Shown here in pieces: positions 8,460 to 23,655 of a stretch of 64,000 nt of DNA (the first letter of the stretch is position 1; every line of letters starts with the position of its first letter). The translations under genes and the position numbers were made by a program. The notes below the pieces were generated by a model. The model saw only the letters and a list, made by a program, of their open reading frames with translations, did not search any database and was not told the origin of the DNA. Source of the DNA: Myxococcus stipitatus (GTDB taxonomy: Bacteria; Myxococcota; Myxococcia; Myxococcales; Myxococcaceae); contig NZ_CP147913.1 in the NCBI RefSeq assembly GCF_037414475.1, positions 6,136,001 to 6,200,000 of the forward strand, given 5' to 3'.

Positions 8460-9548
8460 TCAGAGCGCCGCGAGTCGGCCCAGGACGCGGGTGGTGTCCT
8501 TCTCCAGGAAGTCGACCAGGTCCGCGGCGCGCGAGTGCCGGATGAGGGGCGCGTTCTGTCCCGCCCACAGCGACATCAGGTCCTCGCGTCCTTGCCGTGA
8601 CGCCGCCTGCCTCATGGGCTGGGTGAGCCAGTTCTGGATGGGGTAGGGCGGGATGTCCCGCTCGAGGGGCGTCAGCTCCGTCATGAAGCGGTTGCGGATG
8701 CCGCGCGCGTAGCGGCCGGAGAAGACGCGGGTCAGCGTGGTGGCGCGGGAGGTCTCCGGGTCCCTCAGGGCCCGGCGGTAGGCCTCGCTCGCGTTGGACT
8801 CCTCGCAGGCGAGGAAGGCCGTCCCCACCTGCACTCCCTCCGCGCCCAGCGCCAGCGCCGTGGCCACCGACCTGCCATCCGCGATTCCTCCCGAGGCGAT
8901 GACCGGCGTGCGCACCCGGTCCACCAACTGGGGCACCAGCGCCGTCGTCGCGGGGGCCTCGTCGACGGGCCTCAGGAAACAGGCCCGGTGCCCCCCGGCC
9001 TCGCTGCCCGAGGCGACGATGAGGTCCACTCCCGCCGCGTCCAGCGCGAGGCCCTCGGCCACGTGGGTCGCCGTGCCCACGGTGAGGATGCCCCGGGCCC
9101 GGCAGGCCTCCAGGATGCGCGCCGAGGGGACCCCGAAGATGAAGCTGAACACCGCCGGGCGCATCGCGAGCACCGCCTCCACCTGCTCCTCGTAGTCCGG
9201 CGCGAAGGCCGTCGGGTACGTGGGCGGCGGCACGCCCAGCTCGTCGAACCACGGCTTCAGCCGCTCGACGCCGGCCTGGAACTCCTGGGGCGAGGGCCGC
9301 AGCCCGCGCTCTGCCTCCAGCGGGACCCACAGGTTGATGGAGAACGGGCGCGAGGTGAGCCCACGCAGCTCCTGGATGGTGGCCTCGATGCGCGCGCCGT
9401 CCAGGTGGTTGGCGCCGAACGAGCCCAACCCTCCGGCCTCGGACACCGCCGCGGCCAGCCGCGTCGAGGACATGCCACCGCCGAACGGCCCCTGCACCAG
9501 CGGGAGCCGGACGCCCAACGTCCGCGTGACTCGAGTCTCGGTCCACAT
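8460..9548 (-). CDS. Nitronate monooxygenase-type FMN oxidoreductase
   Basis: 362 residues from the ATG at 9548, which has AGGAGGG 7 bases upstream; open frame further upstream lacks such a site. It is a TIM-barrel flavoprotein of the nitronate monooxygenase/2-nitropropane dioxygenase family. The markers are PLVQGPFGGGMSSTRLAAAVSEAGGLGSFG in the first 50 residues, then GVDLIVASGSEAGGHR and VIASGGIADGRSVATALALGAEGVQVGTAFLAC for FMN phosphate binding. Family members oxidise alkyl nitronates or reduce quinones with FMN, so the exact substrate is open. It is monocistronic, convergent with bestrophin and divergent from the GNAT gene. Confidence 0.85.
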   Translation of the reverse strand: MWTETRVTRTLGVRLPLVQGPFGGGMSSTRLAAAVSEAGGLGSFGANHLDGARIEATIQELRGLTSRPFSINLWVPLEAERGLRPSPQEFQAGVERLKPWFDELGVPPPTYPTAFAPDYEEQVEAVLAMRPAVFSFIFGVPSARILEACRARGILTVGTATHVAEGLALDAAGVDLIVASGSEAGGHRACFLRPVDEAPATTALVPQLVDRVRTPVIASGGIADGRSVATALALGAEGVQVGTAFLACEESNASEAYRRALRDPETSRATTLTRVFSGRYARGIRNRFMTELTPLERDIPPYPIQNWLTQPMRQAASRQGREDLMSLWAGQNAPLIRHSRAADLVDFLEKDTTRVLGRLAAL

Positions 9549-9788
9549 GGAGAAGCCCTCCTGTCGCCGACGTGGCGTAGCGGCGGGTCGCACCCTCCGC
9601 ATCCCCAACGCCGGGCGGACGGTCCGGGCTTCGCTTCCAGGTTTACCGTGACGAGAAGCTGGCCTTGTGGCGCGCGGGTTTCCGCCGAGGTCGCGGGAGC
9701 TTGCTCCGGTCAGGGGCAGGTGCAAGCCTGCCGTCGGGCCACTGTGCCATCACGGACGCAACCCGCCGTTTCCAGGGAGCTCGACACC

Positions 9789-10343
9789 ATGCACGCACCG
9801 GGACCGACCCTGCACACCGCTCGCCTCATCCTCCGCCCCACGGCGCGGCAGGACTTCGAGGGCTTCGTCGCCCTGCTGTCGGACGCCGACAGCGCCCGCT
9901 TCATCGGCGGCGTCCAGCCCCCTTCCGTCATCTGGCGCGGCTTCACCGGCATGGCGGGGGCCTGGGCCCTCCAGGGCTTCTCCATGTTCTCCGTGCTGGA
10001 GCGCTCCACCGGCAAGTGGGTGGGACGGGTGGGCCCCTGGCAACCGGAGGGCTGGCCGGGGACGGAGGTGGGCTGGTCCCTGCTGAAGGAGGCGTGGGGC
10101 CGGGGGTATGCCATCGAGGCGGCCTCCGCGGCGATCGACTGGGCGTTCGACCACCTGGGCTGGACGGAGGTCATCCACTCCATCGCCCCCGACAACGTCC
10201 CCTCCCAGCAGGTCGCCCGGCGGCTGGGCTCCACCCTACGAGGCCCCGGGAAGCTGCCCGCCCCCTTCGAGGCCGCCCCGATTGAACTCTGGGGACAGAG
10301 CCGGGAGGCCTGGAGGGCCCGCCGCGCTCCGTCCAATGGCTGA
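9789..10343 (+). CDS. GNAT acetyltransferase, RimJ/RimL type
   Basis: 184 residues. It begins LHTARLILRPTARQDFEGF, the standard opening of RimJ/RimL-like N-acetyltransferases. The acetyl-CoA-binding segment is EVGWSLLKEAWGRGYAIEAASAAIDWAF (G-x-G-Y-A), and the late motif is HSIAPDNVPSQQVARRLG. The family acetylates protein N-termini, amines or antibiotics; nothing here fixes the substrate. The start ATG is the one directly before the conserved N-terminus. Confidence 0.85.
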   Translation: MHAPGPTLHTARLILRPTARQDFEGFVALLSDADSARFIGGVQPPSVIWRGFTGMAGAWALQGFSMFSVLERSTGKWVGRVGPWQPEGWPGTEVGWSLLKEAWGRGYAIEAASAAIDWAFDHLGWTEVIHSIAPDNVPSQQVARRLGSTLRGPGKLPAPFEAAPIELWGQSREAWRARRAPSNG

Positions 10344-10474
10344 CCCAGGGTGGGATTCCAGGGCATGGAAGGGCCCCTGGTGTTATGTCCGGTGGTGGGC
10401 TAGTCCTCGCCGTTGGGACGTGTCCGCCCAAGGCTCCCTTTCTCAAGGGGCAGGGGGGCGACTAGATTCGAAGT

Positions 10475-10505
10475 CTCGCACGGAGTGACACGCACCGTGC
10501 GCGAG
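10475..10505 (+). promoter_or_regulatory. Hairpin in the infC leader
   Basis: CTCGCACGG (10475-10483) can pair with CCGTGCGCGAG (10495-10505) with a two-base bulge, leaving an 11-base loop. It lies 113 bp before the infC start, inside the 274-bp leader between the GNAT stop and infC. A role in leader control is only suggested by position. Confidence 0.3.
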
Positions 10506-10606
10506 TGTCAGAGGGGCGAGCCGCCCGCCGTACGCGTCGGCCCGACCCATGCCGTAACCCAAAGACCTGCCACACCCTTGGGGAGCAGGTCCTCCAACCC
10601 TTTCGC

Positions 10607-10620
10607 AGGAGCGTCACATT
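10607..10620 (+). promoter_or_regulatory. infC: infC ribosome-binding site with ATT start codon
   Basis: AGGAG (10607-10611) stands 6 bases before an in-frame ATT at 10618-10620. From ATT the frame reads straight into the IF3 N-terminus; the first common start codon in that frame (GTG at 10699) would remove 27 conserved-looking residues. In E. coli infC starts at AUU, and IF3 represses its own mRNA by rejecting that codon. The same autoregulation is expected here. Confidence 0.85.
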
Positions 10621-11346
10621 CTTCGTGATCAGAGAGGTAACCGCGGCGGGAGCCGCGACCAGAGAACCAATCGCCGTATCCGTGCCCGCGAGGTCCGCGT
10701 GGTCGGCTCCGATGGCTCACAGCTCGGAGTCATGCCGCTCGAGGCCGCGCTCGAGAAAGCCCGCTCGGAAGGGCTCGACCTCGTCGAGGTCAGCCCCATG
10801 GCACAGCCGCCAGTCTGCAAAATCATGGACTACGGCAAGTTCAAGTACGAGGAGAAGAAGAAGGCCTCGGAAGCCAAGCGGGCTCAGCTGATTGTCCACC
10901 TCAAGGAAGTGAAGCTCCGTCCCAAGACGGAGGAGCACGACTACGAGTTCAAGGTCCGCAACACGCGGCGCTTCATCGAAGAGGGCAACAAGGCCAAGGT
11001 GGTCATCCAGTTCCGCGGGCGTGAAATCACGCACAAGGAGCAGGGCACGGCCATCCTCGATGACGTGGCGAAGGACCTGAAGGAAGTGGCCGTCGTGGAG
11101 CAGCCGCCCCGGATGGAAGGGCGTCTGATGTTCATGATTCTGGCGCCCACGCCCAAGGTGGCGCAGCGCGCTCGCGAGCAGGCCCGGCAGGCCGCGGGCA
11201 TCGCCACCAAGCAGCAGCGCCCCAATCCGGCTCCGTCCGCCGACGAGAAGCCGGCCGCGCCCGCCGCCGCTGCCGCGGCTGCTGCCCCCAGCGCCCCCTC
11301 CGAGGAGCGAGCGCCCGCGTCTGACACGACGGGCCCGACTCCCTGA
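10618..11346 (+). CDS. infC: Translation initiation factor IF-3
   Basis: 242 residues, starting at the rare ATT codon. IF3 binds the 30S subunit, keeps 50S away and checks the start codon and initiator tRNA. The N-domain (about 18-85) includes VRVVGSDGSQLGVMPLEAAL and MAQPPVCKIMDYGKFKYEEKKK. The C-domain (about 90-175) includes LKEVKLRPKTEEHDYEFKVRNTRRF and RGREITHKEQG. A ~65-residue Ala/Pro-rich tail follows; a tail of this sort is known in Myxococcus xanthus Dsg, the IF3 needed for development and reported to start at a non-ATG codon. rpmI and rplT do not follow directly; a sigma54 activator does. Confidence 0.97.
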   Translation: MLRDQRGNRGGSRDQRTNRRIRAREVRVVGSDGSQLGVMPLEAALEKARSEGLDLVEVSPMAQPPVCKIMDYGKFKYEEKKKASEAKRAQLIVHLKEVKLRPKTEEHDYEFKVRNTRRFIEEGNKAKVVIQFRGREITHKEQGTAILDDVAKDLKEVAVVEQPPRMEGRLMFMILAPTPKVAQRAREQARQAAGIATKQQRPNPAPSADEKPAAPAAAAAAAAPSAPSEERAPASDTTGPTP

Positions 11347-11353
11347 GACCCAC

Positions 11354-11399
11354 ACCCCCGCACGCGGTGGATGGTTTCCACCTCCACCGCGTGGGGGGT
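11354..11399 (+). terminator. Strong hairpin terminator after infC
   Basis: CACGCGGTGGA (11361-11371) pairs with TCCACCGCGTG (11383-11393), and the stem extends with ACCCCC against GGGGGT around one bulged G. It starts 8 bases after the infC stop. The tail is not a T-run. Confidence 0.65.
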
Positions 11400-11552
11400 C
11401 TCCCCCTGGACTTCCCCACCCCGCATCCGCTTCCTGCTTCCTTGGAAAGGGAGCGTGGCTTCGCGGACGTTGGGGCATGCCGGGGGGTGAATCCTCCACG
11501 ACATGACGGTGTAGGCTGATAGGTTGGAAGACTCGGAAATCTGACTCAGCCC

Positions 11553-13169
11553 ATGCAGCAGAAGCTTTCCGCCGACATGTCGACGACCGCTGTCCACACG
11601 AAGGGCAAGTCCGCGCAGGCCCCGCGGAGTGTGCCCGCGCTGACCGTCGTGTCCCATCCGCAGGCGCAGCGGATCGGTGAGCGGCTCCTCCTGGAGGTCC
11701 TCGCCAGCGTGGGCCGGACGGCGGCCCTGTCCCGCAACGCGCCGGACTTCTCTCGTCCGGGAGGGGTGCTGGCGCTGCCGCTGTCGGACCCGTTCCTGAG
11801 CCGGACCCCGGTGCTGTTCGAGCCGGCGGCGAACGGGGGGCTGCGGCTGCTGGTGCCGGAGGACGGCACGCAGGTGTCCGTCGCGGGCGAGTCCGTCGCG
11901 GGCGGCCGTGAGTTCACCCGCGAGGAGCTGGCCGCGGGGGTGCCCCTGGTGCTGGCCGAGCGCGTGGTGCTGCTGCTCCACATGGCCTCGCCGTCCTCGG
12001 AAGGCGGCGTGAAGGACCTGGGGTTGGTGGGGCAGGCGGAGGGCATCCAGCAGCTTCGCGAGGACATCCTCCGGGTGGCGGACCTGCGGGTGCCGGTGCT
12101 CATCCGGGGTGAGACGGGCACGGGCAAGGAGCTGGTGGCGCGCGCCATCCATGACCAGGGGCCGCGGCGCTCCGGTCCATTCATCAGCGTCAACCTGGGC
12201 GCGCTCTCCAAGGAGCTGGTGGCCGCCGAGCTGTTCGGCGCGCAGCGGGGCGCGTACACGGGCGCGAACCGGGACCGAGAGGGCTTCTTCCGCGCCGCGC
12301 ACGGCGGCACGCTCTTCCTCGACGAGGTGGGCGAGGCCCCCGCCGAGGTGCAGGCCGCGCTCCTGCGCGTGCTGGAGACGGGCGAGGTGACGCCCGTGGG
12401 CGGCCACGCGGCGGTGCCCGTGGACGTGCGGCTGGTGGCCGCGACGGACTCCGATTTGGAGTCGCGCATCGAGGAGCGCATGTTCAAGGCGCCGCTGCTT
12501 CACCGGCTGGCGGGCTTCGAGCTGCGGGTGCCTCCGTTGCGTGAGCGGCGCGAGGACATCGGGTTGCTCTTCCTCCACTTCGCGCGCCAGGAGCTGGAGA
12601 CCACGGGCGAGACGTGGCGGCTGGCCTCCACGGACCCGCGCGCGCAGCCCTGGCTTCCGTCGTCGGTGGCCGTGCGGCTGGTGCGCTACGCGTGGCCCGG
12701 CAACGTCCGTCAGCTTCGCAACGTCACGCGCCAGCTCATCATCGGCAGCCGGGGCCTTCCGGGCCTGCGGGTGGACTCGCGGCTGGAGCAGCAACTGGAC
12801 GGCGAGTCACTGCCCGTTCCGGGGCGGGTGTTGTGCTCGCCGGCGCAGGGCCCGGTGGAGTCCGCGGACGCGAAGTCCTCCCGGCGCAAGCCCTCCGAGG
12901 TGGGGGAGAACGAGCTCCTGGAGGCGCTGCGCGCGTGCTCGTGGGACTTGAAGGCCACCGCGGACTTCCTGGGCATCCCCCGTCCTTCCGTCTACGTGCT
13001 CATCGACAAGAGCCCGCTCATCCGCACCGCCCGGGACTTGAGCCCGGAGGAAATCACCCGCTGCTTCCAGGAGTGCGAGGGGGATTTGGACAAGATGGTG
13101 CAGCGGTTGGAGGTCTCCCGCCGTGCCCTTCAGCGGCGCGTCCGGGAGCTGGGGCTCGCGGACGCCTGA
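11553..13169 (+). CDS. Sigma54-dependent transcriptional activator
   Basis: 538 residues. The N-terminal ~150 residues look like a divergent FHA-type sensor domain (LSRTPVLFEP...LVLAERVVLLLH) and not a response-regulator receiver. The AAA+ core (about 155-395) has Walker A GETGTGKE, the sigma54-contact loop as GAYTGA (usually GAFTGA), Walker B GGTLFLDEVGE, VRLVAATDSDLE and the sensor region PPLRERREDI. The C-terminus (about 455-538) carries a Fis-like helix-turn-helix (LKATADFLGIPRPSVYVLIDK) and a second similar helical unit (LDKMVQRLEVSRRALQRRVRELG). It should use ATP to open promoters bound by RpoN; its targets are unknown. No clear ribosome site is seen, and an internal ATG at 11577 is possible. 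Confidence 0.88.
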   Translation: MQQKLSADMSTTAVHTKGKSAQAPRSVPALTVVSHPQAQRIGERLLLEVLASVGRTAALSRNAPDFSRPGGVLALPLSDPFLSRTPVLFEPAANGGLRLLVPEDGTQVSVAGESVAGGREFTREELAAGVPLVLAERVVLLLHMASPSSEGGVKDLGLVGQAEGIQQLREDILRVADLRVPVLIRGETGTGKELVARAIHDQGPRRSGPFISVNLGALSKELVAAELFGAQRGAYTGANRDREGFFRAAHGGTLFLDEVGEAPAEVQAALLRVLETGEVTPVGGHAAVPVDVRLVAATDSDLESRIEERMFKAPLLHRLAGFELRVPPLRERREDIGLLFLHFARQELETTGETWRLASTDPRAQPWLPSSVAVRLVRYAWPGNVRQLRNVTRQLIIGSRGLPGLRVDSRLEQQLDGESLPVPGRVLCSPAQGPVESADAKSSRRKPSEVGENELLEALRACSWDLKATADFLGIPRPSVYVLIDKSPLIRTARDLSPEEITRCFQECEGDLDKMVQRLEVSRRALQRRVRELGLADA

Positions 13170-13344
13170 GCCGGCTGGACGCGTCAGACCTGCGTGGTGA
13201 CGTGTCGTTGACGCGTCCAATGCGCTCACTCGAGGAGGTCCGTGGGAGTCCTCCCGAGTGAATCGGGCACACGACGCCGCTGGTACGGTGCCTGCAAACT
13301 CACGTCGTCAACGCGCAGTCCAACCCCAGAAGGAGCCACGGCCC

Positions 13345-13701
13345 ATGGCCAACAAGACGCTCAAGCCCATTGTCATCCTCATTCAGCCCTCGGGCCCCAA
13401 TCCCTCTCCCGCGCTCGTTCGTCCCGGGGAAGAGGTGACGTTCCGGCTGGATGGCGTCAACTCCGCGGAGGTGCAGTTCACCGACGGCAGCTGCTTCTCG
13501 GAGCCTGGCCCGTTCATCCTGAACAACGGCAGCCCCCTGGCGGCCAACAGCGAGCACACGGTGACGTTGACCGCCGTCCCGCGGAACTACCCGTACAACG
13601 TCATCCTGCCCCCCTCGGTCGAGAGCCGCCTGGGTGGCAACGCGGAGACGAAGAAGGGTGGCCTGGACGTGACGACGGACCCGCCCAAGGACCCGAAGTA
13701 G
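13345..13701 (+). CDS. Hypothetical protein, 118 residues
   Basis: The ATG has AAGGAG 9 bases upstream. No signal peptide or membrane segment is visible. The chain is rich in beta-forming segments (PIVILIQPSG, EEVTFRLDGV, AEVQFTDGSCF, EHTVTLTAVP) and ends in a Lys/Pro tail; it may be a single small beta-sandwich. I do not recognise the family. It converges on the large kinase gene. Confidence 0.7.
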   Translation: MANKTLKPIVILIQPSGPNPSPALVRPGEEVTFRLDGVNSAEVQFTDGSCFSEPGPFILNNGSPLAANSEHTVTLTAVPRNYPYNVILPPSVESRLGGNAETKKGGLDVTTDPPKDPK

Positions 13702-13741
13702 CCTTCGCCGCCGGGCCTGATGGAGGGGAAGGGCGGGCGAG

Positions 13742-16700
13742 TCACTCCACGCCGGAGGCGAGCCTGCCCTTCCACCACGCGGCCAGGGAGGGATTGCGCG
13801 CCAGCGCGGCTTCCGCGTCCGCGCGGGCCTGACTTCGCCACGTCTGTTGCTGCTCGGCCGACGCGTGGGTCTGGGCCAGCGCCCCTCTCAACCCGGCGCG
13901 CAGAAGCCGCGCACGTGCCCACTGGGGCCGCGCGGCCAGGATGCGCTCCACGGACTCCACGCCGCGCATCAGCACCGGCGCGGCGTCCTCTCCCCGGCCC
14001 TGCCTCCAGCGCCCCCACGCGAGTTGGAGTTCTCCGGCGGCCAGCACGTACTCGTGCTTCCGGGGGGCCAGCTCCACCGCTTGCGCGAGCGCCTCCGCGG
14101 CCTTCTGGAAGTCCTCGTCCGTGGCGGTTCCCTTCAGCGCGCGATGACGGGCGCGCACGTCGAGCACGCCACCTTGATAGCGCCAGGCATACCCGAGGCG
14201 AGGGTTGAGCGCCCGGGCGCGCGCGAGGGCCTCTTCCGCCTGGGCGAGGTCCGGGCCCACGTCGCGCTTCTTGTCCAGCGCGTGGGTGGCCCACAGCACG
14301 TGCACTCGCGCCAGGTTGGTCCACATGTCCGCGTCACCAGGCAGGAGGTCCAGCGCGCGGCGGTAGTCCTCCTTCGCCGCGCGGAGGCTCGCGGTGGGGT
14401 CCTCGCCTCGCGCCAGGATGATGCCCGCGCGCACCGCCTCCACCTCGCCCAGGTTGTTGTAGGCGAATGACTGTTGTGGCGCGATGACGCGAGCGTCCTC
14501 GAAGGCCCGCCGGGCTTCGGCCAGCAGGGGCTCCACGTCCTTGCCCTCCTCCCAGTGCTGCTCGGCCTGCCACAGGAGGGTGGCGCCCAGGCCGTTGGGG
14601 AGCTGGGGCAGCCGGGGGTTGATGTCCCGGCCCTGTTTGTAGAGCGCCAGCGCGCGCACCACGTCCGGCTCCGGGTCCTGGCCATGCTCCTGCTTCCAGC
14701 GCGCGAGCTGCTCGGCCACGTCCGCGCCCTGGTAGCAGCCGATGACGTTGCGCGGGTTGAGCGAGAGCGCCCGCTCGATGGCCTCCATGGCGCGGCGCAA
14801 ATCCCCCTGCGTGTCCGTCGCCTGGGGCAGTCCCGCCCGGGCCCGGTAGGAGTTGCCGAGGTTGATCCACGCGTCCGCCTGGTTCTCCCGCACGCGGATG
14901 GCCGCCAGGTACGTGTCGATGGCCTTGTCCTGGTGGGCGCGTGGGTCCAGGCCGTGCTCGTTCTCGTAGTCGGCCCAGATTTGATGGGTGAGCCCCAGCG
15001 TCGCGTAGAAGGCGTAGTCGCGCTCCTCGGGGCTCAGCTGCTCCAGCGCCTCGACGGCCTTGCCCAATTGCTCCCGTGGGTCCTGCGAGAGCCGCTGTTG
15101 GTGTCGGGCCCAGAGCCTGTGCGCGATGGCCAGCTCCAGCGTCACGCGGTCGCTGGGCGGGGCGAGCTTCATCGCGGCCTGGGCCGCGTCGATGGCCTTG
15201 CCCAAGAGCTCCTCCACGTCGCTCGCGTTCTGGTTGGCGTGCTGCTCGGCCAGGCGGCGGTGCAGCCGTGAGCGCACGACGAGGGAGGGGTGGTGGTCCG
15301 GCGCGGCCTTCAGCGCGTGGTCCAGGGCCTCCAGTCCCTTCTGATAGAGCGGCTGGATGTTGCCCGCGCCGTAGAGCTCCATGACCAGCGCGGCCAGCTC
15401 CAGGCGCCCGAGCGCGTAGTGCCCCGCGGGCTGGCTCTCCGCCGTGGCGATGGCCTGGGCATACGCGCGCCGTCCCGCCTCCAAATCCGCCTGGGAACCC
15501 GCCGTGTCGCCCTGATGCCAGCGCCCCGTCGCGCGCGCCAGGTACACGTCGCCTCGCAGGTGCGGCGCCTCGTAGAACCAGGGCTGCGCATCACCCATCG
15601 CGTCCAGGTGCGCGAGCGCCTCCTCGTGGCGGCCTTCATGGAAGGCGAAGAGGGCCTTCACATACAGCGGCGGCGCGGGGACGTCGGGGCCCTCGGCCTG
15701 GCGCAGATAGGCCAGCGCCGGGTCCCGGTAGCGCTGCTCCAGCTCCCGGCGGCGCGCCTCCCGGTTCTCCGGGCTGCGGCGCTCGACGTCCAGCAGCAGC
15801 TTCTCCCGGTACTGGTCTCCCAGCACCACCGCCAGCGCCCAGGCCGCGCGAGGCTCCCGGTAGCCATTCTCCCACGCGGCCTCCAGCTTCCGCCGCGCGC
15901 CCTCCACATCGCCCAGCGCCCAGAGCGCGCGGCCCAGGGCGTAGTTGCCAGGGCCCGCCGCGCGCCCGCCCGACTCACGCACCTCCGCCTCGAGCGCCTC
16001 CATGCTCGCGCGCAGCGCCTTGCGGTCCTCGCGCGTGTCATGGAGCCGGGAGAGGAACGAGTAGCGCGCGGCCGCTTCGATGCGCTCCACCCGCTCGGTG
16101 AAGCTGCGGGTGAGCCGCTCGCGCTCGGCCACCTCGCTTCGCGCGAGCACGGCCTGCCCCAGCGCCAGCGCCACCACCGTCAGCGCCGCCAGGCCCAGGC
16201 TCAACACCACGCGGTGCTTGCGCGCCTTCTTGCGCAGCCGGTAGCCCAGGCCGCGCCGGGCCTGCACGGGCTCTCCCCCGAGGAAGTGCTCCAGGTCATC
16301 CGCCAGCGCCCGCGCCGAGTCGTAGCGGGCCGAGCGCTCCTTCTCCAGGCACTTGAGGACGATGGCCTCCAGGTCCTCGGGGATGTCCCGGTCCAGCGTG
16401 CGCGGCGGGGGTGGCTCCTCCGTCTGGAGCTTCGTGATGATGTCGTGTTCGTTGTCCCCGCTGAACGGCGTGCGCCCGGTGAGCAGCAGGTACAGCGTGG
16501 CGCCCAGGCCGTAGACATCCACGCGCCGGTCCAGCCGGGCCGTGTCGCCCCGGGCCTGCTCGGGAGCCATGTAGTGCGGCGTGCCCATCACCACGCCGTG
16601 CATGCCCGCTTCCTCGCGCCAGTCGCGGGCGAGTCCGAAGTCCATGACGAAGGGGACGAAGTCGCCGTCCTCCGTGCGCTCCACCAGGATGTTGCCGGGT

Positions 16701-17416
16701 TTGATATCGCGGTGGACCAGGCCCGCGCGGTGCGCGGCGTGGACACCCTCGGCCGCCTGTCGCAACAGGAGCACCTTCTGCTCGGGCGTCAGCGTCGGCG
16801 CGAGCTGTCCCAGCGACTGGCCCGCGACGTAGCGCATGGCGATGTAGCCGCGCCCCTGCACCTCGCCGACCTCGTACACCTCGCACACCCGCTCGTGGCG
16901 CACGCGGGCCTGGGCGCGGGCCTCGGACAGGAAGCGCCGGGCCAGCTCCGGGTCTCCGCCGCGCACGAACTTGAGCGCGACGTTGCGCCGCAAGAGCGGG
17001 TCATACGCCAGGAACACCTGCCCCATGCCGCCCTGGCCCAGGAAGCGCACCGGCTGATAGCGGTCCCAGTCCGGTACGGGAAAGCCCGGCTCCGCGGCCG
17101 CGTCCGCCGAGGCTGGCGCCTGCGGGGACACCACGGGGGTCTCCGGGTCCAGCGTCGCGGCCTCCAGCGGGCCGGGGCCCGTGCCCGCCGTGTCACCCAG
17201 CTCCCGGGAGAGCTCCTCGCGCAGGGCGCCGAGCGTGTACTCGCCCAGGCGCCCCCTCTCGCTCAACAGCTCCAGGGGACTGCGGCCCTGGTCGAGTGCC
17301 TCCTCGCGCAGCGCGGACGCCTCCTCGGCGGAGACGAGCCCTTCGTTCAGCGCGAGGAGCAACTCCTCCTCATACCTCTCCTGCGTCTTCCCCGCGGTGT
17401 CCACGGCCCCCAGCAT
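13742..17416 (-). CDS. Membrane Ser/Thr protein kinase with large TPR-like region
   Basis: 1224 residues from the ATG at 17416; a longer frame would run into the preceding gene. An acidic helical N-terminus (1-75) precedes the Hanks-type kinase domain (about 120-385). That domain has P-loop GQGGMGQVF, lysine in VALKFV (149), catalytic HRDIKPGNIL (235-), DFG (259-261) and activation-segment end GTPHYMAPEQ. All catalytic residues are present. A juxtamembrane basic stretch and one membrane helix (about 403-425) follow, then ~790 residues of helical tetratricopeptide-like repeats (for example WINLGNSYRARAG). The kinase would be cytoplasmic and the repeat region on the other side of the membrane, probably binding a protein ligand. 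This layout is common in myxobacteria. Confidence 0.9.
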   Translation of the reverse strand: MLGAVDTAGKTQERYEEELLLALNEGLVSAEEASALREEALDQGRSPLELLSERGRLGEYTLGALREELSRELGDTAGTGPGPLEAATLDPETPVVSPQAPASADAAAEPGFPVPDWDRYQPVRFLGQGGMGQVFLAYDPLLRRNVALKFVRGGDPELARRFLSEARAQARVRHERVCEVYEVGEVQGRGYIAMRYVAGQSLGQLAPTLTPEQKVLLLRQAAEGVHAAHRAGLVHRDIKPGNILVERTEDGDFVPFVMDFGLARDWREEAGMHGVVMGTPHYMAPEQARGDTARLDRRVDVYGLGATLYLLLTGRTPFSGDNEHDIITKLQTEEPPPPRTLDRDIPEDLEAIVLKCLEKERSARYDSARALADDLEHFLGGEPVQARRGLGYRLRKKARKHRVVLSLGLAALTVVALALGQAVLARSEVAERERLTRSFTERVERIEAAARYSFLSRLHDTREDRKALRASMEALEAEVRESGGRAAGPGNYALGRALWALGDVEGARRKLEAAWENGYREPRAAWALAVVLGDQYREKLLLDVERRSPENREARRRELEQRYRDPALAYLRQAEGPDVPAPPLYVKALFAFHEGRHEEALAHLDAMGDAQPWFYEAPHLRGDVYLARATGRWHQGDTAGSQADLEAGRRAYAQAIATAESQPAGHYALGRLELAALVMELYGAGNIQPLYQKGLEALDHALKAAPDHHPSLVVRSRLHRRLAEQHANQNASDVEELLGKAIDAAQAAMKLAPPSDRVTLELAIAHRLWARHQQRLSQDPREQLGKAVEALEQLSPEERDYAFYATLGLTHQIWADYENEHGLDPRAHQDKAIDTYLAAIRVRENQADAWINLGNSYRARAGLPQATDTQGDLRRAMEAIERALSLNPRNVIGCYQGADVAEQLARWKQEHGQDPEPDVVRALALYKQGRDINPRLPQLPNGLGATLLWQAEQHWEEGKDVEPLLAEARRAFEDARVIAPQQSFAYNNLGEVEAVRAGIILARGEDPTASLRAAKEDYRRALDLLPGDADMWTNLARVHVLWATHALDKKRDVGPDLAQAEEALARARALNPRLGYAWRYQGGVLDVRARHRALKGTATDEDFQKAAEALAQAVELAPRKHEYVLAAGELQLAWGRWRQGRGEDAAPVLMRGVESVERILAARPQWARARLLRAGLRGALAQTHASAEQQQTWRSQARADAEAALARNPSLAAWWKGRLASGVE

Positions 17417-17444
17417 ACGGGGTTGCACGGCCAGACGGGGAGAC

Positions 17445-17507
17445 CCGCCGGGAGGTCCACGAGTCCCCGAGTTGGGGACTGGGGGAAGGGTGTGGACCTC
17501 CCGGCGG
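17445..17507. terminator. Nested 16-bp inverted repeat between MYXO-CTERM and kinase genes
   Basis: Arms CCGCCGGGAGGTCCAC (17445-17460) and GTGGACCTCCCGGCGG (17492-17507) match perfectly over 16 bp. Inside is a second hairpin, AGTCCCC (17462-17468) with GGGGACT (17474-17480). It begins 15 bases after the MYXO-CTERM gene stop and ends 28 bases before the kinase start. It is probably a terminator that insulates the kinase, though no T-tract is present. Confidence 0.6.
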
Positions 17508-17522
17508 AAGAATGAAACGGGA

Positions 17523-20500
17523 CTAGCGGCGCTTGTTGCGGCGGCGCAGACCGAGCAAGCCCAGCAGGGCCAGCCACGACGAGGCCGGAGCCGCGCTGCA
17601 GCCACCACCCGCGAACGAGCGCGTGTTCAGCACCGTCCACCGGTACTCGGCGGGAGTCGCATCCACGTTGCTCGCCTCATCCACGGCGCGGACCCGCAGG
17701 GTGTGGTCGCCGTATGGGACGTCGTAGGTGGTGCGGCAGGCGACGTACGGGCCGCCGTTCAGGCTGCACTCGTACCGTACGCCTTCCTCGGTGGACCCGT
17801 AGTCGAACTGCGACTGCGTGGAGTCGGTGCGGTCCGGCGGGCTGCGGACGAACGAGGTGTCCGGCGCCACCGTGTCGATGCGGAACGTGTCCACGTTGGA
17901 GGCGGGGCCGGTGTTGCCCGCCCGGTCCGTGGCCGTGGCCGTCACCGAGTGCGAACCCTCCGCCATCGGCGTGGAAGGCGTGCAGTTCCAGCGGCCGGCG
18001 TCATCCGTGATGGCGGTGCACACGACGGTGCCTCCCTCGCGCACCGTCACCGTGGTGCCCGGCTCCGACGTGCCGCTGATGACCGGCGTGGAGTCGTTGA
18101 GGAGCGAGCCCGGCGCGGGGCCGGCGATGACCGGGGCGGCCGGCGCCGTGGTGTCCACCGTGAAGGTGGAGGGCGTGGACGGGGTGCTGACGCCGCCAGC
18201 GGGGTTGGTGGCGGTGGCCGTCACCGTGTGCGGCCCCTCTTGCAGCGGGGTGGACGGCGTGCAGGTCCAGTTCCCGTTGGCGTCGGCCGTGGCGGTGCAC
18301 AGCACCGTGGAGCCCTCGCGCACCGTCACCGTGGCGCCCGGCTCGGAGGTGCCGCTGATGGGCGGCGTCTGGGTCGAGACCACGGTTCCCGTGGAGGGAC
18401 CGGTGATGACGGGCGGGGTGGGCGGCGCCAACTGGATGACGATGTTCGTCGAGGGCGACGGCTCCGTGGTGCCCAGCACCGTGGACGTGACGACCACCGC
18501 GTGCGGCCCCTCGGGGATGTTGCCCAGGTTGCAGGTCCAGTTCCCGTTGGCGTCGGTGACGGCGGTGCAGGCGGGCGTGGGGTTCCCATCGACGTAGACG
18601 TGGATGGTGGTGCCCGGAGTCGCGGTGCCGCCGATGACCGGGTCCGTCACGCCGCCAGGACCCGGGTCCGTCACGGCGGGGATGCGCTGGCAGATGGAGA
18701 GCGAGTCCACGCGGAACGTGGCCGTCGTCGCCGAGTTGTTGTTGGTGGCGCAGTCGGTGTCGATGAAGGCCACGCGCACGTCACCGGTGGCCGCGTCGAA
18801 GTCGCGACGCTCCGAGAAGCCCTGCTCCATGGCGGCCTCGCGGGTGGTGGAGCCCGTCGCCGCGGGGACGCGTCCCAGCGAGAACCGCTGCGCGCCCGCG
18901 CTGGTGGTGTGGTTGACGCCGAAGATGCCCGGGTACCACTGGGGGCTGCCGTCGTAGTCCGCCGCGCCGGAGACGTAGCTGATGCGGTAGCGGCCCGGAA
19001 CCGTGAGCGCCGCCTGGATGGCCGCGTCCGGCAGGGCGGGCGCGCCGATGTCCGACACCTGCGTGCACTCGTTGCGAGCGTGGCGGGTGATGACCGTGTG
19101 CACCGCCTTGTTCTGGCAGCCGAAGGCGGCCTCCACCGCGCAGGTGGCGCCGCAGCCGTCGCCCGCCGTGGTGTTGCCGTCGTCGCACGCCTCGGAGGCC
19201 GCCTTGATGCCGTCGCCACACCGCACCGCGCAGGACGAGGGGATGTCCACGCAGCTGTAGCCCGCCTCGATGGCGCACGTGCTGCCGCAGCCATCGCCCG
19301 CGGTGGTGTTGGCGTCGTCGCACTGCTCGTCCCCATCCAGCATCCCGTTGCCGCAGATGTTGGCCGTGACGCAGACGTCCGAGTGGGGGTTGCACGTGCC
19401 GCTCTCGCAGACGCCGGACGCGTTGCAGGCCTGGCCGTTCTCCCACAGGCAGCGCGGCGAGCAGGTGTCGCCGCTCTGGAGGTTGCCGTCGTCGCAGACC
19501 TCGGTGCCGGCGACCACGCCGTCACCACAGGTGGTGGTGCAGAAGCTCGGAGCGCCGCTGCACGAATAACCGGGCTCCTGGGCGCAGCTGGCGCTGCAAC
19601 CATCACCCGCCGCGGTGTTGCCGTCGTCGCACGTCTCTCCCGCGTTCAGCACGCCGTTGCCGCAGCTCTGGGTGCACACGGACGTGCTGTTCGCCGGACG
19701 GGTGCAGACGTAACCGGACTCCACCCCACAGGTGGCGTTGCAGCCGTCGCCCGACACGGTGTTGCCGTCGTCACACGCCTCGGCGCCAGCGACCCTGCCG
19801 TCGCCGCAGGTGGTGGTGCAGACGGACGGCGCGACTGAGCAGTTGTAACCGGACTCCACGGCGCAGGCGGAGGAGCAGCCGTCGCCCGACGTGGTGTTTC
19901 CGTCGTCACAGGTCTCGTTCGGGTCCTGGACGTTGTTGCCGCACGAACGGACACACACGGAGGGCGCGTTCGTGGGGGTGCTGCAGGCGTAGCCGGCTTC
20001 TACGCGGCACTCGGTGGCGCAGCCGTCCTGGGAGTTGAGGTTGCCGTCGTCGCACTCTTCGCCCGGGTTCACCACGCCGTTGCCGCACGTGTTCACACAG
20101 GCCTGGCCCGGGATGGGGCACGCGGCGCCCAGCTCCAGGGTGCATGCCACGGAGCAGCCATCGCCCATGTTGGTGTTGCCGTCGTCGCACAGCTCGCCGG
20201 GGTTGAGCACCCCGTTGCCACACAGGGCCTTGCAGTTGGACGGCACGTCGTTGCACTCGTAGCCGCTCTCGACGCGGCAGGAGGCGGAGCAGCCATCGCT
20301 GCCCAGCGTGTTGCCGTCGTCGCACTGCTCACCGGCGTTGAGCTGGCCGTTGCCGCAGGTGGCGACGCAGGCCTGGCCCGGGGTCGGGCACGCATGGCCG
20401 GACTCCACGCGGCAGCTCGCGTTGCAGCCGTCGCCCGCCGTCGTGTTGCCGTCGTCGCACTGCTCGCCGGCGTTGAGCTGGCCGTTGCCACACGTCCGCG

Positions 20501-21683
20501 CGCAGGAGCTGGGCGCGCCCGCGCAGCCATAGCCGGGCTCGATGCCGCAGGTGTTGTTGCAGCCATCGTTGTTGGCCGTGTTGCCGTCGTCGCACTCCTC
20601 GCGGGGAGACACGGTGCCGTCGCCACAGCGGTCGTCGTAGGCGTCCACGAAGATGTAGCGGAACGCATTGGGCTCCGACTGCTCGTTCTCATTGCACAGC
20701 TCGATGCGGTTGAGGCCCGTGCGCCAGGGCGCGTTCGCTCCGAACTCCCGGATGATGTTCTTCTGCCAGGGCTGGCCCGCCGGCTGGCTCACCGTGACCG
20801 GCGTGAAGTTCGTCCCGTTCACAGTCGCGTGGTCGAAGTCGTTGTCGTTGAACGTCGCGAGGCGCAGGCGGAACTGGGCGACGTTGGTGGTCGAGGGGAT
20901 GATGAACCGCTGGTAGATACACGTCGGGGCACCCAGGGGCGCGGCCATGAAGCGCGCCGTCTGGCTCTCCTGCGGCCAGTCCTGGGCATCGCGCACACCC
21001 GGGACGGCGCCTGCGTTGTTGCTGGTGTAGAACCAGTGCGGGTCCAGACCGGACTCCAGCCGGCGGTTGTTCTGGTCCACGCCCGTGTTGAAGACCACCA
21101 CACCCGCCCTCACGCAGCGGCTGGGCGTCCCCGCGCAGGCGAAGCCGGGCTCGACTTCACACTGACGGTTGCAGCCATCGCCCTCGGCGCGGTTGCCGTC
21201 GTCGCAGATCTCCTGGTCGAAGTTGGGCCACTGGCGATTGTTGAACACGCCGTTGCCGCACAGCGACAGGTCGCAGGTGGCCGAGCATCCGTTGGTGTCC
21301 GCCGTGGTGTTGCCGTCGTCGCAGGCCTCGCCGGTGTTGATGACGTTGTTGCCGCACAGCGTGGCCAGGGAGCAGGGCCGGCCAGGCACATGGCACAGGT
21401 AGCCGGCTTCGATGGCGCCCGCGGAGGAGCAGCCATCGCCGCTCACCGTGTTGCCGTCGTCGCACTGCTCACCGGGCTGCAGCCGGCCGTCGCCCACGAG
21501 CGCGGAGGACTGGCTGGAGACCAGGGCCTCCTCGGGGACGGGCGCGGGAGGCGTGGGCTCGCAGCCGGTGAGGGCCGCGAGGAGCGCGAGCGCGAGGGCC
21601 GCGCGGAGCCCGGCGCGCGCGGGCGGCCGAGGCTCGGGACAGAAGTGTTCAGGGACTCGTGTTGTCATGGATGTCTGCCTCAC
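17523..21683 (-). CDS. Cys-rich CDDGN-repeat surface protein with MYXO-CTERM anchor
   Basis: 1386 residues. The N-terminus has a hydrophobic stretch with a lipobox-like end, LTGC (Cys about 41). Then come 14 copies of the myxobacterial Cys-rich repeat (pattern CGNGxxNxGExCDDGNTxxGDGC), interrupted after copy 3 by a ~150-residue non-repeat domain and followed after copy 14 by another beta domain. Three Ig-like repeats (IxGTSEPGxTVTVREG) and a final beta domain precede the C-terminal tag GCSAAPASSWLALLGLLGLRRR, which is the MYXO-CTERM sorting signal (Cys, hydrophobic helix, Arg cluster). It should be displayed on the outer membrane. Its ATG overlaps the stop of the OmpA-like gene (ATGA), so the two are translationally coupled. 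Having both an N-terminal lipobox and a C-terminal sorting tag is unusual. Confidence 0.92.
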   Translation of the reverse strand: MRQTSMTTRVPEHFCPEPRPPARAGLRAALALALLAALTGCEPTPPAPVPEEALVSSQSSALVGDGRLQPGEQCDDGNTVSGDGCSSAGAIEAGYLCHVPGRPCSLATLCGNNVINTGEACDDGNTTADTNGCSATCDLSLCGNGVFNNRQWPNFDQEICDDGNRAEGDGCNRQCEVEPGFACAGTPSRCVRAGVVVFNTGVDQNNRRLESGLDPHWFYTSNNAGAVPGVRDAQDWPQESQTARFMAAPLGAPTCIYQRFIIPSTTNVAQFRLRLATFNDNDFDHATVNGTNFTPVTVSQPAGQPWQKNIIREFGANAPWRTGLNRIELCNENEQSEPNAFRYIFVDAYDDRCGDGTVSPREECDDGNTANNDGCNNTCGIEPGYGCAGAPSSCARTCGNGQLNAGEQCDDGNTTAGDGCNASCRVESGHACPTPGQACVATCGNGQLNAGEQCDDGNTLGSDGCSASCRVESGYECNDVPSNCKALCGNGVLNPGELCDDGNTNMGDGCSVACTLELGAACPIPGQACVNTCGNGVVNPGEECDDGNLNSQDGCATECRVEAGYACSTPTNAPSVCVRSCGNNVQDPNETCDDGNTTSGDGCSSACAVESGYNCSVAPSVCTTTCGDGRVAGAEACDDGNTVSGDGCNATCGVESGYVCTRPANSTSVCTQSCGNGVLNAGETCDDGNTAAGDGCSASCAQEPGYSCSGAPSFCTTTCGDGVVAGTEVCDDGNLQSGDTCSPRCLWENGQACNASGVCESGTCNPHSDVCVTANICGNGMLDGDEQCDDANTTAGDGCGSTCAIEAGYSCVDIPSSCAVRCGDGIKAASEACDDGNTTAGDGCGATCAVEAAFGCQNKAVHTVITRHARNECTQVSDIGAPALPDAAIQAALTVPGRYRISYVSGAADYDGSPQWYPGIFGVNHTTSAGAQRFSLGRVPAATGSTTREAAMEQGFSERRDFDAATGDVRVAFIDTDCATNNNSATTATFRVDSLSICQRIPAVTDPGPGGVTDPVIGGTATPGTTIHVYVDGNPTPACTAVTDANGNWTCNLGNIPEGPHAVVVTSTVLGTTEPSPSTNIVIQLAPPTPPVITGPSTGTVVSTQTPPISGTSEPGATVTVREGSTVLCTATADANGNWTCTPSTPLQEGPHTVTATATNPAGGVSTPSTPSTFTVDTTAPAAPVIAGPAPGSLLNDSTPVISGTSEPGTTVTVREGGTVVCTAITDDAGRWNCTPSTPMAEGSHSVTATATDRAGNTGPASNVDTFRIDTVAPDTSFVRSPPDRTDSTQSQFDYGSTEEGVRYECSLNGGPYVACRTTYDVPYGDHTLRVRAVDEASNVDATPAEYRWTVLNTRSFAGGGCSAAPASSWLALLGLLGLRRRNKRR

Positions 21684-23527
21684 TTCTCGAGGGTGTCGGC
21701 CCCGGGGGTTCCCTGCTTCGTCTCGACGCCCTCGGCGTCACCGACGATGCGGAACTCCACGCGGCGGTTCTTGGCGCGGCCGGGCTTGGTGGTGTTCTCC
21801 GCGATGGGCTTGGCGGGGCCATAGCCCTGCGCATCCAACCGCTCGCGGCTCACGGACTTGCCCACCAGGTACTTCACCACCGCCTCGGCGCGGCGACGGG
21901 AGAGGTCCAGGTTGTAGTCCGCCTTGCCCGTGTTGTCGGTGTGTCCCTCGACGCGCAGCTTCTCGATTTCAGGGTGCGACGCGAGGATGGCCGCCACGCT
22001 GTCGAGCAGCTTGTGGCTGCGCGTGCTGATGACGTCCTGGTTGTTCTCGAAGAAGACGGACTCGAGGATGCGAATCTGTCCTTCGCCAATCTGCGCCAGC
22101 TGCTTCTGCTTGCAGCCGTGGTTCTTCTCCGTTCCCGGCTCATCCGGGCAGTTGTCCAGCCGGTCCACGAGCCCGTCGCCGTCGCGGTCCTTGTCCGGGC
22201 AGCCGCGGTTCTCCTTCGGGCCCGCCTCGTTCATGCAGGCATCGCGCGCGTCCGCCACGCCGTCCTGGTCGTTGTCCGGGTCCGGGCAGCCGTTGTCGTC
22301 CTCGAAGCCGTCCATGTCCTCGGCCTGCTTCGGGCACGCGTCCTTGGAGTCCGCGATGCCGTCGCCGTCGGAGTCCGGGTCATCCGGGCAGCCGTCGGAG
22401 TCCTCGAAGCCGTTGATGTTCTCTGCTTGCGCGGGGCAGCGGTCCGCCAGGTTGAGCAGGCCGTCCTGGTCGTCGTCCGTGTCCGCGCAGCCGTTGAGCT
22501 GGGCGAGGCCCGGCGTCGTCGGGCAGCGGTCCGCGACGTTCTTCACGCCGTCGCCATCCGCGTCCAGGTCGGGACAGCGGGCCGCGTCGTGGGGCTGGCC
22601 CGCGACACATGAAGCGACCTTCGTGCCATCGGAGCCGAAGTTGACGCCGGCCAGCACGCGGAACTCGGGCGTGCCGGGCGTCTGACCGAAGCCGGGGCCA
22701 CCCATGATGTAGAACTCGGTGCCCTCGGTCCGGGCGCTGCGAAGACCCAGCAGCACCTCGAGCGACTCGGGCGCGTCCGCGAACGGCAGCGTGCCGCGCA
22801 CCACCAACTCCTCGCGCAGGCCGAACAGCTCGGCGGAGACATTGACGCCGCCGTTCATCTCCACGCCCATCTCGTCGCGCAGCGGCGTCGCGCCGGGGGT
22901 AAGGGCGTACGTCTTGGTCCTCACGAGCGCGCCCACGTCCGCGCCCACGCGCCACGTGTCGTTCAGCCGCTTGCCAAGCCCCAAGCGCGGGGTGAAGACG
23001 AAGCCATCATCCCGGGTGAGCACCTCTTCGCTGCCCAGGGGCAGGGCCACGCCCAGGTGCAGGCCCATGTCGAGCGGGCCTCCGCGCGACTCGGACAGGA
23101 TGCCCGCGCGCGCCTGGAGCCAGGGCGTGCCCAGCGCGAAGGTCGACGGCGTCTCGAAGCCCAGCGTCTTCGTGTCCGGGCCCCACTGCGTGACGATGGG
23201 AACCTGCGCGCCGAGCTCCAACCAGTCCGTCAGGGCGTAGGCGCCGCTGAAGTGCACCGTCACGCGGTCGGACACCACGGTGCCCAGTCTCGCGTCGTTG
23301 CGCATCAGCACCAGCGGCCTGCGCTGGTAGTGGGCCGTCATGCCCAGGCGGAAGGTGCCATCCGGCAGCAGGTCGCCCGTGGACAGCACGAGGCTGTCCT
23401 TCGCGCCGGGGTTCAACTGCAACCGCTCCAGCTCCACGCTGGGAATCCGCTGGGCCTGTGCCTCAGCGGAGAATGCCCAAAGGACGGCCAGTCCTCCGAG
23501 CAAGGATGAGTGACTTCTCGATTTCAA
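21680..23527 (-). CDS. OmpA-family outer-membrane protein with thrombospondin type 3 repeats
   Basis: 615 residues from a TTG codon at 23527. GGAGG lies 5-6 bases before this TTG, and the frame then gives a clean signal peptide (MKSRSHSSLLGGLAVLWAF, cleavage near AEAQA); an upstream GTG would put acidic residues in front of it. Domains: an N-terminal beta-barrel-like region (about 25-300), Asp-rich calcium-binding thrombospondin type 3 repeats (about 310-450; DxDxDGVxDxxDxCP), and an OmpA domain (about 465-590; FFENNQDVIS, VEGHTDNTGKADYNLDLSRRRAEAV) that binds peptidoglycan. Together with the coupled MYXO-CTERM gene it resembles the TraB half of the Myxococcus TraA/TraB cell-recognition pair, an inference from architecture only. 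Confidence 0.88.
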   Translation of the reverse strand: MKSRSHSSLLGGLAVLWAFSAEAQAQRIPSVELERLQLNPGAKDSLVLSTGDLLPDGTFRLGMTAHYQRRPLVLMRNDARLGTVVSDRVTVHFSGAYALTDWLELGAQVPIVTQWGPDTKTLGFETPSTFALGTPWLQARAGILSESRGGPLDMGLHLGVALPLGSEEVLTRDDGFVFTPRLGLGKRLNDTWRVGADVGALVRTKTYALTPGATPLRDEMGVEMNGGVNVSAELFGLREELVVRGTLPFADAPESLEVLLGLRSARTEGTEFYIMGGPGFGQTPGTPEFRVLAGVNFGSDGTKVASCVAGQPHDAARCPDLDADGDGVKNVADRCPTTPGLAQLNGCADTDDDQDGLLNLADRCPAQAENINGFEDSDGCPDDPDSDGDGIADSKDACPKQAEDMDGFEDDNGCPDPDNDQDGVADARDACMNEAGPKENRGCPDKDRDGDGLVDRLDNCPDEPGTEKNHGCKQKQLAQIGEGQIRILESVFFENNQDVISTRSHKLLDSVAAILASHPEIEKLRVEGHTDNTGKADYNLDLSRRRAEAVVKYLVGKSVSRERLDAQGYGPAKPIAENTTKPGRAKNRRVEFRIVGDAEGVETKQGTPGADTLEK

Positions 23528-23655
23528 GAGTTCCTCCACGTCCACGCGGCGTCATGTGCGCGCGCGACCTTCGACCACCCGTTGGGTGCGCCTGCACGGT
23601 TGCACGGCGCGGGCCAGGATGTCGTGAGGAAGACGGAGGAATCGATGAGTGGGGC

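Follow-up and report, generated by a model that had tools for sequence, protein, structure and literature searches.

The TraA and TraB proteins of myxobacteria, which serve kin recognition and outer-membrane exchange, are regarded as a unique machine. TraB is required for formation of the TraA adhesin, and the OmpA domain of TraB is required for exchange (PMC6626042, PMC12045341); each of the two proteins arrives at the outer membrane without help from the other (PMC12045341), and TraA without its MYXO-CTERM tag is released via type II secretion (PMC11980579). A two-part plan, in which a MYXO-CTERM adhesin goes together with an outer-membrane barrel bearing an OmpA domain, has been described for TraAB and for MXAN_5598 (PMC3325183, PMC11980579). 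Here, we analyzed a gene pair of this kind from Myxococcus stipitatus, found in a 64,000-nucleotide window that spans positions 6136001-6200000 of the complete 10.3-Mb genome (features of the pair are given in window coordinates). A gene for a barrel/OmpA protein is followed by a gene for a cysteine-rich (Cys-rich) surface protein, and both lie co-directionally on the minus strand, as do all of the features described below for the two proteins. We find that the pair forms a separate Cys-rich branch, constant between species, of what seems to be a general myxobacterial module in which a barrel anchors a surface protein.

The gene pair is real. Since the two genes stand side by side in 35 of 35 carrier genomes examined (one genome per species, 27 from the window's genus and 8 from other genera) and both have stop-free frames with high third-position GC, the arrangement is not due to chance. 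The genome's closest named relatives are species of Myxococcus, Corallococcus, Pyxidicoccus, and Citreicoccus, and the Cys-rich protein is present as a single copy in each of the 35 genomes. Across the phylum, the locus is carried by 49 of the 195 genomes searched, all within one family; the distribution of the pair is clade-specific. When genome contigs were scanned with a single sequence, 0 loci were recovered, and an alignment-based scan recovered 23. The locus is also present at 80% identity in a record titled Comamonas sp. KCTC 72670, which is probably a mislabelled myxobacterium.

The TraB-homologous outer-membrane protein is encoded at 21680-23545 (621 aa as an open reading frame [ORF], with an uncertain start codon between 23545 and 23527). 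The ORF of the Cys-rich protein (17523-21683) opens with a GTG that overlaps the TGA stop of the barrel gene, in a frame that the relatives do not conserve; the conserved start is instead an ATG at 21668, 11 nt past the barrel-gene stop, which gives a protein of 1381 aa (17523-21668). The ATGA coupling that the first-pass annotation had described is therefore absent.

The upstream protein shares the architecture of TraB, with an outer-membrane barrel, a thrombospondin type 3 (TSP3) linker, and an OmpA domain. An AlphaFold2 model of its β-barrel domain (22631-23359) has 12 long strands and aligns with the 12-stranded barrels NalP, EspP, and FapF at Z 19-21 (VIA-align), the best structural matches being autotransporter translocators and the polypeptide transporter FapF. 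The model supports a 12-stranded outer-membrane barrel, with matches at Z 19-21 that cannot tell a pore from an anchor. Next come four PF02412 stretches in the periplasmic linker (22136-22576) and an OmpA peptidoglycan-binding domain (21764-22054; PF00691, 1.1e-21) that also matches Pal/OmpA structures, in agreement with the earlier description of an OmpA/thrombospondin-3 protein. The suggested resemblance to TraB goes as far as true homology, since profile comparison with TraB gave 97% probability (9e-11) for the barrel alone and 1e-55 for the whole protein. Still, it is not TraB itself: its score on exchanger_TraB (NF033763) was 263.7 bits, far under the 700-bit cut-off, whereas the genuine TraB of the same genome, encoded elsewhere (5311747-5313372 of the genome) beside a genuine TraA with TIGR04201 repeats, scored 1016 bits. 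Its nearest paralogs within the genome are not TraB but two MYXO-CTERM-linked proteins (2.5e-29 and 3.5e-25).

The downstream protein begins with a signal peptide ending in the lipobox LTGC (21561-21668), in which the predicted lipidated Cys lies at 21561-21563; this lipobox pattern, absent from the first-pass annotation, was matched in 32 of 35 orthologs. It is followed by N-terminal Cys-rich repeats of the TIGR02232 family (21114-21506), the interrupting domain (20628-21113), the main Cys-rich array (19140-20627; TIGR02232/DUF4215), a variable second insert (18669-19139, residues 849-1005), immunoglobulin (Ig)-like domains matching Pfam Big_13 (17859-18668), and a MYXO-CTERM sorting tag (17526-17609). 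The repeats match TIGR02232 at 8e-182 and DUF4215 at 1e-89, and the count of 14 reported from the sequence alone was exactly reproduced, as were the Ig-like domains, of which we found three. The tail, GGGCSAAPASSWLALLGLLGLRRRNKRR, is MYXO-CTERM-like as proposed: although it scored 14.9 bits on TIGR03901 (cut-off 20), the genuine TraA of the same genome scored 14.5 bits, and GGGCS followed by a hydrophobic stretch and an Arg tail is kept in 34 of 35 orthologs. One relative's Cys-rich gene ends before this tail (1202 aa open frame), through either mutation or an assembly error. Since the protein has both a lipobox and a MYXO-CTERM tail, it may, judging from these motifs, bear lipid at both ends.

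On the other hand, the downstream protein is not a TraA homolog by sequence comparison. It has another Cys repeat family and no PA14 variable domain, and neither NF033759 (TraA) nor TIGR04201 was among its NCBIfam matches. Profile comparison of the Cys-rich arrays of the two proteins gave 10%, and hhalign gave the interrupting domain a probability of 0.2% of being a relative of the TraA variable domain, which led us to reject that relationship. The resemblance to TraA that had been read from the sequence thus does not extend to homology. The second insert, which the earlier description lacked, is less conserved and is wholly or mostly absent from 6 of 34 relatives; it showed no profile-level homology to the TraA variable domain or to the interrupting domain.

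The interrupting domain had been placed at residues 165-320; the domain stands, but its limits are at about residues 191-352. It had also been proposed as a possible hypervariable recognition domain, with invariance across strains taken as the sign against such a role. In a comparison made between species, invariance is what we found. Copies of the domain from the 34 other species are 70-88% identical to that in the window and have hardly any indels; in an alignment of 24 species, about 90 of 192 columns do not vary. As a control for allele switching, we used the TraA variable domain from the same genomes. Nine pairs of sister species have TraB barrels that are 97-100% identical; within these pairs, identity drops to 49-53% in the TraA variable domain but holds at 91-99% in the interrupting domain. 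Since the switch in TraA is visible in these same genomes, the comparison can detect switching, and we rejected a hypervariable recognition domain at the between-species level.

Searches of Pfam, NCBIfam, and PDB sequences found no family for the interrupting domain. Its structural model is a low-confidence β-sandwich (predicted local distance difference test [pLDDT] 58) that resembles carbohydrate-binding modules, and the closest solved structures, CBM35 and sugar-binding domains from glycoside hydrolases, are weak matches to that model (Foldseek E 3.7e-3 at best; Z up to 7.7, with 2w47 at 7.2). The structural matches listed include no PA14 structure, which is not evidence of absence. Given this model and these matches, glycan binding is our guess from the fold. 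The constancy of the domain suggests a constant ligand, for example, a glycan of the matrix, of the cell's own surface, or of prey.

The link between this kind of barrel and MYXO-CTERM proteins extends well beyond the pair. Well-assembled Myxococcaceae genomes have about eight to fifteen members of the barrel family. We sampled 38 loci of the family, leaving out orthologs of the window pair, and found a MYXO-CTERM tail in the gene directly downstream of the barrel in 23 of 37 cases and directly upstream in 5 of 38, compared to 2 of 336 at all other positions together (Fisher p 6e-25, with many of the 38 loci orthologous to each other). Because the tail was called by pattern, the 0.6% found elsewhere is an upper bound on the false-positive rate there. 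When the loci were collapsed at 50% barrel identity by average linkage (single linkage had chained), 7 of the resulting 15 subfamilies were linked or fused to MYXO-CTERM. The intergenic gap between barrel and partner is usually -4 to 21 nt, and the partners are diverse: they include AgmC-domain Ig proteins and a TraA-related Cys-rich protein, and some are fused to the barrel. In another family of the order, we observed a barrel gene followed directly by a gene for a 2116-residue MYXO-CTERM protein with 307 cysteines (locus at 9142-17562); this protein is TraA-related (209.7 bits), and the gene order is reversed.

Fusions tie the two parts together within single genes. In the window's genome, one gene (2139339-2144960) encodes both a tagged, kelch-like adhesin and a barrel of the TraB family, and its homolog in M. 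xanthus AM003 is split into tagged adhesin and barrel genes; this is a fusion/fission case joining both parts. The MXAN_5598 homolog (6835420-6843666, 2748 aa, upstream of ftsZ) likewise combines an AgmC domain, Ig repeats, an internal MYXO-CTERM, a barrel, and OmpA in one protein. Its TSP3-like stretch also matches CglD. A small protein encoded at 7530784-7531794 was seen to carry TraA-type Cys repeats (TIGR04201) and an OmpA domain on a single chain. M. xanthus AM003 has eight barrel genes, and five of these lie in barrel/MYXO-CTERM modules, namely, the window ortholog, the split pair, an AgmC-like pair, the fused protein beside ftsZ, and TraAB (one module partner lies at a contig edge and is cut off before the tail). 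We found no description of this linkage as a family in the literature searched. TraAB and MXAN_5598 seem to be two already known instances of a broader module built from two parts.

Since an outer-membrane barrel, a wall anchor, and a MYXO-CTERM surface protein together make up the TraAB plan, adhesion is a fair reading of the pair. We therefore hypothesize, with slightly better than even confidence, that the pair is a cell-wall-anchored surface adhesin of constant specificity in which the barrel partner acts as a clamp; the function is predicted. The upstream protein would sit in the outer membrane through its barrel, cross the periplasm with its TSP3 linker, and grip peptidoglycan with OmpA. 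The Cys-rich protein would be exported by Sec, have its MYXO-CTERM tail cut by myxosortase, and arrive at the surface by type II secretion, where its repeats, presumably stiffened by disulfides, would display the conserved carbohydrate-binding-like domain. By analogy with TraB and TraA, direct contact with the barrel protein probably fastens the surface protein to the wall, so that the wall and not the membrane would bear pulling force. More broadly, and with evenly balanced confidence, we propose that giant MYXO-CTERM adhesins (TraA, AgmC-domain, and Cys-rich) each have their own TraB-type barrel/OmpA partner for fixing to the wall, that TraAB kin recognition is the branch with an acquired polymorphic domain, and that the window pair represents a branch whose specificity is fixed and which may also be lipid-anchored at both ends.

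Several observations weigh against the clamped adhesin. In M. xanthus AM003, three of the eight barrel genes lie beside no MYXO-CTERM gene, and the interrupting-domain model combines a pLDDT of 58 with matches below Z 8. In addition, the distant, metagenome-assembled Myxococcales bacterium 68-20, in which the interrupting domain is 73% identical, has the Cys-rich gene at contig positions 5512-9243 with no adjoining barrel gene. This orphan is possibly due to transfer or a binning error, but because of it, we regard the pairing as strong yet not absolute. It is also what could be said for the adjacency of two unrelated envelope genes by mere coincidence, which we find very hard to credit given the adjacency in all 35 genomes, the family-wide linkage, and the fusions. 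Similarly, a further system for kin recognition and outer-membrane exchange, in parallel with TraAB, would account for the TraB homology and for the shared plan of an OmpA barrel with a Cys-rich MYXO-CTERM protein, yet it is highly improbable, since the interrupting domain is constant between species where that of TraA varies, the PA14 variable domain is lacking, the repeats belong to another family, and the same genomes have a genuine TraAB. Of the parallel adhesion or recognition system envisaged by the first-pass annotation, the adhesion part is thus a fair reading of the shared plan, and the recognition part is not supported between species.

It is harder to separate the clamp from a barrel that serves as a pore devoted to translocating or displaying its MYXO-CTERM partner, as in two-partner secretion or FapF-type transport, with OmpA merely positioning it. 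The 12 strands, the autotransporter and FapF matches, and the presence of one barrel per large surface protein, usually with the barrel gene first, all fit such a pore. However, comparable scores come from many unrelated 12-stranded barrels, the surface protein has its own lipobox and MYXO-CTERM tag, type II secretion releases untagged TraA (PMC11980579), and neither TraA nor TraB needs the other to get to the outer membrane (PMC12045341); we consider a pore unlikely. A structural envelope module, either an outer-membrane/wall tether or a surface coat with no specific adhesion role, would be consistent with the OmpA anchor and with a single-copy, constant sequence in every sampled genome of the genus. 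Nevertheless, a plain tether would not usually carry so large and disulfide-rich an ectodomain, complete with Ig repeats and a lectin-like domain, and the related modules include TraA and AgmC gliding-domain proteins, which makes this explanation rather improbable as well. The wall-clamped adhesin of constant specificity remains our preferred reading. Immediately downstream of the pair lies a gene for a Ser/Thr kinase with TPR repeats (13742-17608, minus strand); it is syntenic in 29 of 34 relatives, and the kinase is a possible regulator of the pair.

Taken on its own, the pair is ordinary-looking, and by the species-level evidence it is not a second kin-recognition system. Its interest lies in what it says about TraAB: if TraAB is one member of a barrel-anchored family with several modules per genome, some of them with the AgmC gliding-motility domain, then comparing modules offers a way to study how kin recognition arose and what the barrel partner does. 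Among known systems, Capnocytophaga OmpA (5wtl) shares the TSP3 linker and OmpA peptidoglycan-binding domain (1.7e-64 for this part), and it is not known to have a MYXO-CTERM partner. AgmC-domain proteins (NCBIfam NF047640) also carry MYXO-CTERM, and their genes come right after those of the same barrel/OmpA family, but their ectodomain consists of an AgmC N-domain and Ig repeats behind a type I signal peptide. The MXAN_5598-type fused protein beside ftsZ (PMC11980579) has a large adhesin region, MYXO-CTERM, and a barrel of the same family with OmpA, but it does so in a single chain with AgmC-type Ig repeats in place of Cys-rich ones. TraAB is closest in plan, with adjacent genes for a homologous barrel, TSP3, and OmpA protein and for a Cys-rich surface protein with a MYXO-CTERM tag. 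It differs in that the gene order in the window is reversed, with an 11-nt gap from the conserved start in place of a four-base ATGA overlap, and in that the window partner has TIGR02232 rather than TIGR04201 repeats, a lipobox rather than a type I signal, and, without a PA14 variable domain, a candidate domain that is invariant between species. A true TraAB is also present in the same genome. The invariant Cys-rich pair offers a natural control for TraAB, in which the plan is shared and the polymorphism is absent.

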